64,000 nt of DNA. Source: Lentisphaerae bacterium WC36. GTDB lineage: Bacteria > Verrucomicrobiota > Lentisphaeria > Victivallales > SZUA-371. Position 1 is the first letter of the stretch. Each line of letters opens with the position of its first letter. The stretch lies in assembly GCA_020683205.1 (NCBI GenBank), contig CP085689.1:186001-250000 (forward strand), in the 5' to 3' direction. The notes under the pieces are model-generated. The model saw only the letters and a list, made by a program, of their open reading frames with translations, was not told the DNA's origin and did no database searches. Positions 36,253-42,467 of the stretch are shown piece after piece. Made by a program: the position numbers and the translations under genes.

Positions 36253-37626
36253 TTAATTTTGAGCTAAAATCATCATAATTTTTTCATCAAAAGCTTTTGC
36301 TTTGCTGTTGGCTAATTTTTGCGTTTTAGCCTCAACAAATAATCGAATCACCGGTTCAGTATTGGATGCCCGTAATAATAACCACGACCCATCAGTGAAA
36401 TCAATTCTCAATCCATCAATATCGGTAATTTTTTCATTACTGTATTCATCTTTGAACATACGAATTATTTTTTGAGCAAAAACTGCTGAACATTGATATT
36501 TTTTGCTAAAATATTTATAATGTGGCAATGATTGATAAATATCGTCAAATGTTTCAGTTGTCAATGCTAACATTTCAAGGATTAATGCCATTGCAGTGAA
36601 GCTATCTCTGCATGGGTGTACTGCTGGGAAAATTACTCCACCACTACCACCTTCGCCTCCGATAATGGCATTAGCCTTTAACATCTGTTCTGTGACATTA
36701 ATTTCACCAACTGGAGAATAACTAATATTGCAACCGTAACTTTTAACAACATCTTCTAATGATTTTGTGGTTTGAATATTTGCCACTACGTTACCAGGTT
36801 TTTCTGCTAGAATATGTTCAGTTGTCATTACTAAAGTGTATTGTTCGCTTATTGCCTCGCCACTGTTTGAAACTAACGCTAAACGATCTCCATCGGGATC
36901 TTGAGCGAAGCCAACATCACATTTGAATTCACGTACAGTATCGCTTAATTTTTGCAGGTTTTCAGCCGTTGGTTCTGGTTTGCGGCGGAAAATTCCGTCA
37001 CGTTCTGCAAAAATTTCAACAACATTGCAGTTTAATGCTTCTAAAAATTGACGGCTGTAAAAACTGCCAACCCCATTACAACAGTCTACTGCTACAGTAA
37101 AATTTCGCGCTCTAATTGCTTCGGTATCAATATTATTAAAAATTCTCTTTTGATGTATTGCAAATGAATTAGTTATTTTTCGCAACCCCATGTAAGCATT
37201 TTCGCTGACCAAGTTGCGGTCTAGTTGATTATAAATATCTAATAATTCTGCTGCTTGATGCTGATTTAAAAATAAACCGTTGCCGCCAATAAATTTTAAT
37301 GCATTCCATTCTGCTGGGTTGTGGCTGGCACTAATCACAATTGCGCCATTAGCATTATATTCATTTACTAAAATTTGTGCAGTTGGAGTTGGAATAACTC
37401 CTGCCAATAACACTTGGCAACCAACTGCGCGTAATCCACTCAATACTGCTTGTTCGACCATGATGCCACTGCTTCGTGAATCACGTCCAACAATTACGGT
37501 ACCTCCAGCAACATATTCACCAAAAGCCATTGCAAAATCATTGATTAGTTGTGGCGTTAAAGTTTCGCCAATAACTCCACGCACTCCACTGATACTTATT
37601 TTCAATCTTCTATTTTTAGTTTGCAT
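36253..37626 (-). CDS. glmM: Phosphoglucosamine mutase / phosphohexomutase
   Basis: An alpha-D-phosphohexomutase. It interconverts glucosamine-6-P and glucosamine-1-P for peptidoglycan and LPS precursors, or acts on a related hexose phosphate. All four motifs are intact: the phosphoserine loop VISASHNPAEWNALKF, the metal loop DPDGDRLALV, the sugar-binding GGEGSGGV and the phosphate-binding RASNTEPVIRLFVEA. AAGGAG precedes the ATG. Its start overlaps the end of the upstream degenerate paralogue by 11 bp, so the pair is co-translated. PMM/PGM activity cannot be excluded. Confidence 0.87.
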   Translation of the reverse strand: MQTKNRRLKISISGVRGVIGETLTPQLINDFAMAFGEYVAGGTVIVGRDSRSSGIMVEQAVLSGLRAVGCQVLLAGVIPTPTAQILVNEYNANGAIVISASHNPAEWNALKFIGGNGLFLNQHQAAELLDIYNQLDRNLVSENAYMGLRKITNSFAIHQKRIFNNIDTEAIRARNFTVAVDCCNGVGSFYSRQFLEALNCNVVEIFAERDGIFRRKPEPTAENLQKLSDTVREFKCDVGFAQDPDGDRLALVSNSGEAISEQYTLVMTTEHILAEKPGNVVANIQTTKSLEDVVKSYGCNISYSPVGEINVTEQMLKANAIIGGEGGSGGVIFPAVHPCRDSFTAMALILEMLALTTETFDDIYQSLPHYKYFSKKYQCSAVFAQKIIRMFKDEYSNEKITDIDGLRIDFTDGSWLLLRASNTEPVIRLFVEAKTQKLANSKAKAFDEKIMMILAQN

Positions 37627-38989
37627 GATAATACTCCTTCAAAATCCCGTAAACAATTAAAGCTTTTTCTTTAGCAATTTCTTTGGATTTCCATTCAACA
37701 ATTACGCGAATTGCTCCTTCACTTAAAGAATTTCGTAGATAAATCCAACCATCTTCCCAATCAAAACGAATGCCATCACCTTCAGTGATTTTTTGCGCAT
37801 TGCTAAAATGGTCACGAAATTTTTTGATAATGGCGTAGCCGTTTGCTAATGAAATATTGAATTTGCGTTTTACAATATGAAATTTTGGTAAATTTTTGCT
37901 AACATGTTGTGAAATTGGCGCATTGTCTAGTGCAATTGCTTCAAGCATCATAATCATTACCATGAAACTATCGTAATTTTTTAGATGAGTAAACTGCACA
38001 CTTCCACAGCCTTCTCCGGCAATAATGGCTTTGTGTGATTCGCTCATGTCAGCGATATCAGCGGGGCAGGCAGCAGTTTTAAATAATTTAATATTATGTT
38101 TATTGCATAAATGGTCAATCATTTTTGACGTACATAAATTTGTAACCACTACATCTTGATTTGTTGTTGCAATTTTCTTTAGTAAATAATTAAGTGCTAA
38201 AGCAAATGAATACTCTTCAGATAAAGTTTCTGCAGTGTCGCTAACAAGCGACACTCTGCTCATATCAGAACTAAATACAAAACCTATGTCTGCGTTTAAA
38301 GGTAAAATTAACGGTTTTATCTGCATTGCTGAACGTGGACGTGGTTCGGGGTTATGCGGTAAAATCCCATTAACTGAATCGTTGATGCTTACTAAATTAA
38401 GATTTAATTTTTCAGCAATTATTTTGGCAACTTTTGCTCCTGCACCGTTACAAAAGTCGGCAACTACTGTGAATTGTTTAACGATAATTTTCTCAACATC
38501 AATGTTTTTAAGAATAAAATTTACATAATTTTCGTTAATATTAGTTGTTAATTCAATATTTGTTCCTAATTTGTCCCAATCAACAAAATCATAACGCTTA
38601 GAGTGGTAAATATCAAGGAGTTCTTGTTGGCGCATTGCATTAAAAACTTGACCGTCTTCAGAAAATGGTTGGATGGCATTCCAATTGTAGGGATGATGAG
38701 TTGCTCCAATTAATAACCCGCCAAATGCTTTTAATTTTTTTATTGCATAACTAAAAACAGGTGCTGAGCAAACTCCTAAATTAATAACATCACATCCAGT
38801 GCTATAGAGAGCGCCAACAACTGAATTAAGAATCATTTCAGATGATATGCGGTTATCGATTGCAACCACTATGGTTTTTTGTTCCATAAGTGAACCAAAG
38901 GCGCATGCGTAGTCAATAATTATTTTTGGGGTCAAACCGTTGCCTATTTCACCGTGCAGTCCTGACTTGCCAATTCTTAGTTGCTTCAT
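37616..38989 (-). CDS. Phosphohexomutase paralogue lacking catalytic motifs (probable pseudoenzyme)
   Basis: Same fold, same length (457) and same domain order as the adjacent mutase, starting LRIGKSGLHGEIGNGLTP. All the catalytic motifs are changed. The phosphoserine loop reads LIGATHHPYNWNAIQPF (Thr-His-His-Pro instead of Ser-His-Asn-Pro). The metal loop DPDGDR has become SSDMSRV. The sugar loop is AGEGCGSVQF, and the phosphate loop is RNSLSEGAIRVIVEW. The frame is open throughout and composition is normal, so this is a maintained gene rather than a decaying copy. A regulatory or structural partner of the active mutase is the likely role (inference). Confidence 0.8.
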   Translation of the reverse strand: MKQLRIGKSGLHGEIGNGLTPKIIIDYACAFGSLMEQKTIVVAIDNRISSEMILNSVVGALYSTGCDVINLGVCSAPVFSYAIKKLKAFGGLLIGATHHPYNWNAIQPFSEDGQVFNAMRQQELLDIYHSKRYDFVDWDKLGTNIELTTNINENYVNFILKNIDVEKIIVKQFTVVADFCNGAGAKVAKIIAEKLNLNLVSINDSVNGILPHNPEPRPRSAMQIKPLILPLNADIGFVFSSDMSRVSLVSDTAETLSEEYSFALALNYLLKKIATTNQDVVVTNLCTSKMIDHLCNKHNIKLFKTAACPADIADMSESHKAIIAGEGCGSVQFTHLKNYDSFMVMIMMLEAIALDNAPISQHVSKNLPKFHIVKRKFNISLANGYAIIKKFRDHFSNAQKITEGDGIRFDWEDGWIYLRNSLSEGAIRVIVEWKSKEIAKEKALIVYGILKEYYHAN

Positions 38990-39164: not shown

Positions 39165-39896
39165 TTAATTATCAAACATTTCGTTAGTTGATTGTAAAAT
39201 GCGTGTTGGTACTTTCTTTTGCCACATACCACTATTCGTATACCATTTTGGACCTTTAAAACCAGCTACGTGACAGTCTAGATACAAAACGTTTCCATAA
39301 CCGAAATTAGGGTCGTTTCTTGTGAAAGTATGGTTTGGAGTGTAAGTTCCGTCACTTTTGATATTAACGCCATCTGTAGTAATTCCAGAATCAGGCATTC
39401 CCATAATAGAACTACTTCCAGCTACCAGACCAAATGCGTAGGCATATGAACAGCTGTCATTGTTTAATGCTTTATTTTTAGAAGAAATTTTATCTAAGGT
39501 TGATGGACAATGAAAAAGTTTAGGATTTTTAAGTATGCCACAAATTCTAAGTTCTTCAAAGTTTCCTGCTGAAGTGCCAGCTAATTTGCTGTTCTTAAAA
39601 TAATCTTTGGGCGTTGATTTGCCATATTTTTGGGTTAAATATTCAACTGGATCAGCAGTACTGTGTGGAGCTGTTACTTGAGGCATTTTATCATCGTTAT
39701 CTAAGCTGAATATAGCAAATGCTGTTCCAATTTGTTTTAAGTTGCTTGCACAGTTTATTTGCTTATCAACGCTATCATTAGGTTTAGGCTTAGTTGTCAA
39801 ACATCCTGCCATGAAAACTCCACCGATTGCCAAAATAAAAACTACTACTGCTAATTCTGAAAGGTTAAAATAACTTTTTCTTGTTTCTAATTTCAT
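39165..39896 (-). CDS. Pseudopilin-like protein, copy A of a tandem pair
   Basis: A 243-residue protein opening MKLETRKSYFNLSELAVVV, followed by a hydrophobic helix. The order Phe (+1) to Glu (+5) copies type II pseudopilin N-termini, but the residue before Phe is Tyr, not Gly, and the helix ends GVFMAGC, which also resembles a lipobox. Then follows CASNLKQIGTAFAIFSLDNDD, the block common to DUF1559-like pseudopilin proteins, and a Cys-containing FHCPS region. It was probably exported and held at the inner membrane or in the envelope. The start at 39896 is set by AGGAG; an upstream ATG in frame has no site. Its C-terminal ~25 residues are identical to copy B. Confidence 0.75.
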   Translation of the reverse strand: MKLETRKSYFNLSELAVVVFILAIGGVFMAGCLTTKPKPNDSVDKQINCASNLKQIGTAFAIFSLDNDDKMPQVTAPHSTADPVEYLTQKYGKSTPKDYFKNSKLAGTSAGNFEELRICGILKNPKLFHCPSTLDKISSKNKALNNDSCSYAYAFGLVAGSSSIMGMPDSGITTDGVNIKSDGTYTPNHTFTRNDPNFGYGNVLYLDCHVAGFKGPKWYTNSGMWQKKVPTRILQSTNEMFDN

Positions 39897-39957
39897 ATAA
39901 ATTTCTCCTATATAATGTTTGTTTCCATAATTTAGCACTTATTAACTATTAATACAA

Positions 39958-40027: not shown

Positions 40028-40762
40028 TTAATTATCAAACATTTCGTTAGTTGATTGCAAAATGCGTGTTGGTACTTTCTTTTGCCACATACCACTATTT
40101 GTATACCATTTTTTCCCTTTGCATCCAATTACACTATTATCTAAGCGTAAAATATTGCCATAACTTACTATTGCTCTGTTGTTATTAAAATCGGTATGGT
40201 TAGGTTTGAAAGTGTAATCATTGGTGATATTAACTCCATCGGCGGCAATTCCAGAATCAGGCATTCCCATAATAGAACTACTTCCAGCTACCATGCCAAA
40301 TGCGTAGGCATATGAGCAGCTATCATTATTTAATGCTTTATTATCAGAAGCAGTTTGAGTTAAAGTTGATGGACAATGAAAAAGTTTAGGGTCTTTAAGT
40401 ACGCCACACCTTCTTAGTTCTTCAAAGTTTCCTGCCGAAGTGCCAGCTAATTTACTGTTCTTAAAATACCCCTTAGCCATTGGTTTTCCATATTTTTTGG
40501 TTAAATATTCAATTGGATCAATAGTACTGTGTGGAGCTGTTACTCGAGGCATAATATCGTCATTTTCTAAGCTAAACATAGCAAATGCTGTTCCGATTTG
40601 TTTTAAGTTGCTTGCGCAGCTAATCTGTCTAGCTTTTTCTCTTGCTGCGTCAAATGCTGATGATAAACATCCTGTGAATACAACTCCACTAATAGCTAAA
40701 ATAAATACCACCACTGCTAATTCTGAAAGGTTAAAATAACTTTTTCTTGTTTTGAACTTCAT
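40028..40762 (-). CDS. Pseudopilin-like protein, copy B of a tandem pair
   Basis: A 244-residue paralogue of copy A with the same N-terminus (RKSYFNLSELAVVVFILAI) and the same C-terminus (WQKKVPTRILQSTNEMFDN). After the helix it keeps AFDAAREKARQISCASNLKQ, closer to the ancestral pseudopilin pattern than copy A, which has lost it. The ribosome site AGGAGAAATTT is shared by both genes. The region after the helix end (VVFTGC) again resembles a lipobox. High local identity at the DNA level suggests a recent tandem duplication or gene conversion. Confidence 0.75.
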   Translation of the reverse strand: MKFKTRKSYFNLSELAVVVFILAISGVVFTGCLSSAFDAAREKARQISCASNLKQIGTAFAMFSLENDDIMPRVTAPHSTIDPIEYLTKKYGKPMAKGYFKNSKLAGTSAGNFEELRRCGVLKDPKLFHCPSTLTQTASDNKALNNDSCSYAYAFGMVAGSSSIMGMPDSGIAADGVNITNDYTFKPNHTDFNNNRAIVSYGNILRLDNSVIGCKGKKWYTNSGMWQKKVPTRILQSTNEMFDN

Positions 40763-40887: not shown

Positions 40888-41238
40888 TTAAGAAGAGAGA
40901 TTTTTTACTCTGTCTTCGCTACAAATGATTTCTGTAATTCTAATACCAAAATTGTCATTTACAACTACTACATCACCTTTGCCAACAACTACACCATTAA
41001 CCATTAAGTCAACTGATTCACCTGCCAGGCGGTTTAATTCAATAACTGATCCAGTGTTAAGGTTAATTAAATCGCTCACTTTTACTTGAGCTTGACCAAG
41101 CTGGGCACTTACTGTCACTGGGATATCGAAAAGCATTTGTAAATTTTTTTGCATATTGCCTTTATCTGTGGTTGGTTGGTTAGTATTTTGATTCATTTCA
41201 GAAAATTCTGCTTGTGAAATTGTATTATCTGTAGGCAT
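40888..41238 (-). CDS. fliN: Flagellar motor switch protein FliN
   Basis: C-ring protein that forms the bottom of the rotor switch. The C-terminal SpoA domain (~35-110) begins LFDIPVTVSAQLGQAQVKVSDLI and continues GSVIELNRLAGESVDLMVNG. The 116-residue length is that of short FliN; there is no CheC-like phosphatase domain, so it is FliN rather than FliY. Strong GAGGAA ribosome site. It is the last gene before the operon terminator. Confidence 0.95.
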   Translation of the reverse strand: MPTDNTISQAEFSEMNQNTNQPTTDKGNMQKNLQMLFDIPVTVSAQLGQAQVKVSDLINLNTGSVIELNRLAGESVDLMVNGVVVGKGDVVVVNDNFGIRITEIICSEDRVKNLSS

Positions 41239-41270
41239 AATATAGTTCCTCGTTATTAAATATAATTAAT

Positions 41271-42467
41271 TTATTTTGTATTATTTGTTTCGATACGCTC
41301 TAAAAGTTTTACTACGATATTTTCTTGAATTTTCCCTGGTTGAGCAGAAAATAATTCATTTCCCGAAACGGTTACTTTCAATGGCGAATTGATGCTATGA
41401 TTTAAGGTAATTATGTCACCTATTTCTAAATCTAATAAATCGGCTGCATTGACCATCGTTTCACCTAGAGTTACTTCTAAAGGTAACGGGACATCAAAAA
41501 GGGATTTAATAATATCTTCTTTGCTGTACTCCGCTGATTTCTTACCATAATAACTATCAACGTGACTTTCTTCATTTTCTAGAAATTCACTAATTTGTTG
41601 CACCATTGGCAGTGGGTAACAGATTTTAATTACTCCACAAGCAAAGCCAATTTTTACCTCATAAGAGATTACTACGACATAACCATCGCTTGGTGCTAAC
41701 TGAATTGTATTTTTATCAGTACAGTATCGTTCATTATTCACTTTCACAGTTGTTAATGAATTAAAACTTTTATCAAGTTGTTTGATGATTTTTTCTAAAA
41801 ATGGAGTTAAAATCGAAATTTCAATGTCGGTTGGGATATTGGTGTTTTTTTCAACGTCACCTTGTCCTCCAAGAAGCAGATCTAATACACCGTTAATTAG
41901 TGGTAAATTGAAGTTGACTACTGCTAAACCTGGAAATGGATCAGAAGAAAATACCATGTTAAATGCATTTTCGTCAATTGATTCAATAAAATCACAGTAT
42001 TGTTTTTGTTCACCTGCAATTAGATTCACTTCAACGCCTGCTTTCATGTAGACTGCTAAGTCACCACATAAATCTCGCGATAAAACATCATGCAAAACTT
42101 GAAACTTATTTAATTGTTCTTTAGTAATGACATTTGGATGTTTGAAATTATATTCTTTAACATTTTGATTAAAATTTTGAAAACTACTATCGAAATAATT
42201 ATCAAAATTTTTATTGCTCTCAATATCGTTGCTGATATTTGCAGCTGGCGCAGAACGAGAATCTTCGATGGAATCAATGATATTATCTAATTTTTCACCA
42301 TTTTCAATTGATTTTTCTGTAGAATCATCAACTGCTGGCTCTTTGTTTTCTTCATCATTTTGCTGGTCAAGCTTTTCATTTGCTTCGTTAGCTGATTTAT
42401 CAATATCATTATCATCCATTGCTCCTAGCAAAGAATTGATTTCGTCTTGATCTAAAATATTGCTCAT
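41271..42467 (-). CDS. fliM: Flagellar motor switch protein FliM
   Basis: C-ring switch protein. It begins with the CheY-P-binding peptide ILDQDEINSLLGAM (residues 4-17), followed by an acidic Ser/Asn/Asp-rich linker of about 90 residues. The linker is longer than in most FliM. The CheC-like middle domain (~110-300) and C-terminal SpoA domain (~320-395, DVPLPLEVTLGETMVNAADLL) follow. The intact CheY peptide implies chemotactic control of the motor. It is 123 bp downstream of fliL, with a hairpin in the gap. Confidence 0.95.
   Translation of the reverse strand: MSNILDQDEINSLLGAMDDNDIDKSANEANEKLDQQNDEENKEPAVDDSTEKSIENGEKLDNIIDSIEDSRSAPAANISNDIESNKNFDNYFDSSFQNFNQNVKEYNFKHPNVITKEQLNKFQVLHDVLSRDLCGDLAVYMKAGVEVNLIAGEQKQYCDFIESIDENAFNMVFSSDPFPGLAVVNFNLPLINGVLDLLLGGQGDVEKNTNIPTDIEISILTPFLEKIIKQLDKSFNSLTTVKVNNERYCTDKNTIQLAPSDGYVVVISYEVKIGFACGVIKICYPLPMVQQISEFLENEESHVDSYYGKKSAEYSKEDIIKSLFDVPLPLEVTLGETMVNAADLLDLEIGDIITLNHSINSPLKVTVSGNELFSAQPGKIQENIVVKLLERIETNNTK

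Follow-up and report, generated by a model that had tools for sequence, protein, structure and literature searches.

Two overlapping genes of identical length code for phosphohexomutase homologues within a 64,000-nucleotide stretch of the genome of Lentisphaerae bacterium WC36 (contig CP085689.1, positions 186,001 to 250,000; hereafter, the window), and one of them has lost its phosphoserine and part of its metal site. The locus raises the question of whether this altered copy is a relic or a working partner of the intact one.

Two paralogues, one with altered active-site loops

Both genes lie on the minus strand, and we call them upstream and downstream following the direction of transcription. 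Their main features are:

37616..38989, minus strand: upstream gene, 457-aa phosphohexomutase homologue without the phosphoserine and two metal aspartates; proposed pseudoenzyme subunit
38699..38701, minus strand: phosphoserine position of the upstream protein, T97 (motif GATHHP); Gly in most relatives
38255..38272, minus strand: upstream metal loop SSDMSR (240-245); the first and third Asp are substituted, D242 and R245 remain
38000..38017, minus strand: upstream sugar loop GEGCGS (325-330); largely kept
37715..37735, minus strand: upstream phosphate loop RNSLSEG (419-425); altered here, most relatives having RxSxTEP
37616..37626, minus strand: 11-bp overlap of both genes; tight coupling, with -4 bp as the commonest spacing among relatives
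36253..37626, minus strand: downstream gene, phosphohexomutase of 457 aa, all motifs intact; 476.5 bits against TIGR03990 (cut-off 439)
37315..37332, minus strand: downstream loop 1 with phosphoserine S101 (SASHNP); intact
36883..36900, minus strand: downstream metal loop DPDGDR (243-248); D243, D245 and D247 present
36637..36657, minus strand: downstream sugar loop GEGGSGG (324-330); intact
36352..36372, minus strand: downstream phosphate loop RASNTEP (419-425); intact

Coordinates, strand, the length of 457 codons each, the overlap and the clean reading frame of the upstream gene all agree with the original prediction, which had been made from the DNA sequence. It had also assigned all four catalytic motifs to the downstream protein, and these are indeed present (SASHNP, DPDGDR, GEGGSGG and RASNTEP), so that this protein has the motifs of a putatively active enzyme of the alpha-D-phosphohexomutase superfamily.

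The losses attributed to the upstream protein were correct for the phosphoserine and only in part for the other sites. Instead of the xSHNP motif of active enzymes, the window protein has T97 at the serine position, which is occupied by Gly in 75 of the 85 aligned upstream proteins. Two of the three aspartates of the DxDxDR motif are gone (S240 and S244), whereas D242 is kept. The phosphate loop, thought to have lost its pattern, is altered, with T423 replaced by Ser and P425 by Gly, but retains R419, S421, E424 and R428. Most upstream relatives have an intact phosphate loop and combine Ser to Gly with Asp to Asn or Ser changes at the same sites. Of 83 positions conserved in the downstream copies, 11 are lost upstream, including S101, D243 and D247 (p = 0.007) and also K111, R340 and N422; conserved in both copies are R16, D49, R51, H102, D245, R248, R419, S421, T423 and R428. 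In the loop scheme of PMC7761743 (loop 1, phosphoserine; 2, metal; 3, sugar; 4, phosphate), the upstream clade has therefore lost loops 1 and 2 and largely kept loops 3 and 4.

The Pfam PGM_PMM domains I-III score above cut-off in both window proteins, and domain IV does so only in the downstream one. AlphaFold2 models were confident for both (pLDDT 95.8 upstream and 95.9 downstream); the upstream model aligned with the Thermococcus PGM 9du5_A over 443 residues (Z 50.0, rmsd 2.2), and the downstream model matched 9du5 with a TM of 0.92. As modelled, both proteins have the four-domain PGM/PMM fold of the alpha-D-phosphohexomutase superfamily.

Co-occurrence, constraint and origin of the pair

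In a survey that covered Verrucomicrobiota, Acidobacteriota and the matches of one contig scan with named records, we found the pair in Lentisphaeria, in further Verrucomicrobiota families and in Acidobacteriota (mainly Aminicenantia); 22 of 247 Acidobacteriota genomes had matches. The named records were mainly from Lentisphaerota, Candidatus Aminicenantes and Saccharicenans, and included Victivallis vadensis DSM 14823. The altered gene lies directly upstream of the active one, on the same strand, nearly everywhere. We measured the spacing of 107 pairs, using rule-based start codons: it is 30 bp or less in 95 of them, including 46 with a 4-bp overlap. Around 100 genomes contain this gene with the corresponding sites lost, so that its presence reflects more than chance.

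Both copies go together in a sample of 41 genomes of relatives. Likewise, in a class sample of 148 genomes, all 45 with the upstream copy (a fragment at a contig end in two of them) also contain the active partner, 102 have neither, and 45 of the 46 with the active copy have the upstream one (Fisher p ~2e-37, ignoring the relatedness of the genomes). The partner occurs alone in one genome of this sample (G041), and possibly also in G159 and in a Methylomirabilis genome. In genus g5, both copies are retained even though they are on different contigs in seven genomes (G005, G019, G024, G081, G100, G115 and G155). One of these, G019, corresponds by its contig to Victivallis vadensis DSM 14823.

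Constraint on the two copies was equally strong. In 73 close genome pairs, which are not independent of each other, median omega (dN/dS, from Nei-Gojobori counts) was 0.083 for the upstream and 0.089 for the active copies, with a dN ratio of 1.04. Purifying selection and the conserved columns lead us to reject random decay for the family. The lineage of the window copy has no close relative for estimating omega (best identity ca. 46%), so we judged it by conserved columns: it breaks three of 39 near-invariant upstream columns, and other members break up to five. The original prediction had proposed a pseudoenzyme maintained beside its active partner, had suggested dN/dS in relatives as a check, and had named relatives lacking the altered copy, or its random decay, as evidence to the contrary. 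The equal omega values and the perfect co-occurrence (45/45 with partner) in the class sample support it on all these points.

We built a maximum-likelihood tree of 100 proteins after removing the four catalytic motifs, using a quick search that leaves some deep branches open. In this tree, a single clade unites all 47 upstream proteins (SH-aLRT 92), and the subgroups among the downstream proteins match those within it. Distances among upstream and among downstream proteins correlate with r = 0.88 (maximum of 0.19 in 500 shuffles); part of this correlation stems from the shared history of the species. Most simply, these sequence comparisons can be read as one old tandem duplication, after which both copies were inherited jointly.

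Within the upstream clade the loss is graded, from TGSHND with VNIDGDR in some Acidobacteriota and TAGHN with DADGER in others, to TAGHN with NSDxSR in Aminicenantia and GAGHHP with NSDMSR in Lentisphaeria. Four acidobacterial copies (L139, L143, L147 and L148) have an intermediate form, with the Ser kept (TGSHN) and the first metal Asp replaced, and others retain a near-complete metal site (DADGER in L141, L142, L145 and L146; DAEGER in L149). Given this gradation, more than one loss of the serine, or a regain, may have occurred.

A separate variation affects the downstream partner in one gut genus of Lentisphaeria (L046, L047 and L049; also L122, L124 and L125), with motifs TASQHP, DPDGDS, AEG--GG and RKSYSES. 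There, the downstream protein keeps the Ser and the three Asp and has changed sugar and phosphate loops, which the upstream copy keeps; omega is still low (0.03-0.09).

Role of the upstream protein

The conserved pairing of both genes under strong selection in two phyla suggests that the upstream protein is a working subunit and not a relic. The two genes are paired in a conserved order and spacing, are retained together and are equally constrained, which leads us to propose a hetero-oligomer in which one subunit is catalytic and the other is not but probably binds a ligand. We thus consider it reasonably probable that each gene encodes one subunit of a hetero-oligomeric phosphohexomutase and that both derive from one old tandem duplication, the upstream subunit being non-catalytic, competent for binding and regulatory. 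The downstream subunit would do the chemistry, a 1-phosphate to 6-phosphate transfer using its phosphoserine and Mg2+. The upstream subunit, which no longer has the phosphoserine and metal site but retains the fold and both the sugar and phosphate loops, would most likely bind a ligand, either the substrate or the 1,6-bisphosphate intermediate, without turning it over; by contact at the subunit interface, it might activate, stabilise or tune the catalytic subunit.

A simple mutase complex leaves the altered downstream loops of the gut genus unexplained. They could be accommodated if the phosphohexomutase were an obligate two-subunit enzyme, with the non-catalytic subunit as a dedicated sensor or holder of the sugar phosphate or 1,6-bisphosphate, and if the work were split further in some lineages, the active site of the gut genus appearing as if shared between two chains; this more specific proposal is, in our opinion, rather unlikely.

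Searches of the open-licence literature found no description of a bacterial phosphohexomutase-pseudoenzyme pair, and the closest counterparts are partial. The vertebrate PGM5 (aciculin) has no mutase activity and binds glucose-1-phosphate (PMC7761743; 6y8x-z); the upstream protein resembles it as an apparently non-catalytic member of the superfamily with a conserved substrate-binding site. Unlike the upstream protein, however, PGM5 keeps Ser121 and Asp292/294/296, is a structural protein of muscle and has no operon partnership with an active paralogue. In the trypanosome AdoMetDC/prozyme (PMC5201418) and deoxyhypusine synthase (PMC3663545) pairs, a dead paralogue activates the active one and, as here, both are co-retained, in our case under purifying selection. 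These eukaryotic proteins have unrelated folds, and their complexes and activation are experimentally established, whereas we infer them for the phosphohexomutase pair; as analogies, they may offer a working model for allosteric activation.

The precedents also allow a role for the upstream protein that is independent of the mutase, either sensing sugar phosphates or acting as a scaffold for other partners, with co-expression as the only function of the operon. PGM5 would be one example (PMC7761743), and bacterial GlmM, which binds the cyclase CdaA (PDB 7olh, 9g69), another; the conserved sugar and phosphate loops and the persistence of both genes, unlinked, in the seven genomes of one genus are in keeping with such a role. 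We nevertheless regard it as unlikely: no genome of the class sample has the upstream copy but lacks the active one, and both the usual overlap of 4 bp and the mirroring of the subtrees speak for a complex of the two.

It is quite unlikely, in turn, that the upstream protein has enzymatic activity of its own, transferring phosphate from a soluble bisphosphate or catalysing a phosphatase-like or other reaction. The window protein does keep H98, next to the phosphoserine site, as well as D242 and R245, and its Thr could in principle be phosphorylated; the acidobacterial copies that retain the Ser or a near-complete metal site also fit this possibility. Moreover, Ser to Ala mutants of the P. aeruginosa PMM/PGM have weak remaining activity. 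Yet the nucleophile and two metal ligands are absent in most members, the equivalents of K111 and N422 are not conserved, and the residues specific to the upstream copies reveal no new catalytic set.

Distinction from GlmM and genomic context

The original prediction took the pair for GlmM, and this identity did not hold. The genome containing the window, a single contig of 3.66 Mb, codes for four homologues: the pair, a PMM/PGM-like gene and a bacterial GlmM encoded elsewhere (L004), which scores 553.7 bits against the bacterial GlmM model TIGR01455 (cut-off 447.55). The two proteins of the pair score 132.8 and 213.1, both below that cut-off. A separate GlmM above the TIGR01455 cut-off was likewise found in the eight other pair-bearing genomes tested, from Lentisphaeria and Acidobacteriota, and we reject the identity of the pair with GlmM because all nine checked genomes carry a true bacterial GlmM.

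In structure, both window proteins best match archaeal-type phosphohexomutases (TIGR03990; Thermococcus kodakarensis PGM 9du5, Pyrococcus horikoshii 1wqa and Sulfolobus tokodaii 2f7l). The fold is common to all of them, and the downstream protein also shares all the catalytic motifs and exceeds the curated TIGR03990 cut-off; the upstream protein, without phosphoserine and two metal ligands, does not (325.9). No pseudo-subunit is mentioned in the titles of these archaeal structures. Acceptance by TIGR03990, an NCBIfam equivalog for archaeal-type phosphoglucosamine mutase, is weak evidence of function because the model also accepts an upstream protein with Ser to Gly and a changed metal site (L054:137-1504; 452.9 versus 439); such acceptance is likely a source of wrong annotation.

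Gene neighbourhoods are informative in some Acidobacteriota, where the gene order is nagA-upstream-downstream-nagB or upstream-downstream-nagB-nagA, and where NagA and NagB of the members tested score above the TIGR00221 and TIGR00502 cut-offs, respectively. These operons point to amino-sugar catabolism, and the substrate would probably be an amino-sugar phosphate such as GlcN(Ac)-1-P/6-P. In Lentisphaeria the neighbours of the pair vary, and we discarded NagA and NagB as discriminating markers because nearly all genomes of the class have both, whether or not they carry the pair; for this reason, the amino-sugar link is drawn from the Acidobacteriota operons only. Verrucomicrobiota neighbourhoods showed no single pathway, only local synteny with, for example, FliM, TatC or a HAD phosphatase. 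In the window, FliN/FliM-like genes lie upstream of the pair (40888-42467), and FliM-like genes also precede it in L024, L029, L034 and L058, a local synteny for which no functional reason is obvious. In the window, two very similar tandem ORFs (39165-39938 and 40028-40762), with a prepilin-like start and a conserved tail common to both, separate the pair from the FliM/FliN genes.

The amino-sugar context in Acidobacteriota and the acceptance of the downstream protein as 'phosphoglucosamine mutase' (476.5 versus 439) could still suggest that the pair is the peptidoglycan GlmM of the cell with a regulatory subunit. This is very improbable and largely refuted by the separate GlmM in all nine genomes and by the complete absence of the pair from around 100 genomes of the class. 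Bacterial GlmM, in its complex with CdaA (among our structural matches), does provide a case of a phosphohexomutase of the same superfamily acting through protein contact. Finally, we find it hardly credible that the upstream gene of the window is a decaying duplicate that is open by chance, as its long branch (1.21), the R12 to H and T423 to S changes and the degraded RNSLSEG loop could suggest, given its clean frame, the preserved overlap, the few near-invariant columns broken and the purifying selection on the family.

If the two-subunit reading is true, the pair would represent a widely conserved bacterial enzyme-pseudoenzyme partnership within a textbook enzyme superfamily, present in a cultured species, V. 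vadensis DSM 14823, and in large uncultured groups, whose non-catalytic subunit can be labelled by databases as an active phosphoglucosamine mutase. The graded series of upstream proteins, from Ser kept with Asp to Asn, through Ser to Gly with Asp to Glu, to Ser to Gly with Asn or Ser, would then allow a direct inquiry into how an enzyme evolves into a regulatory subunit.
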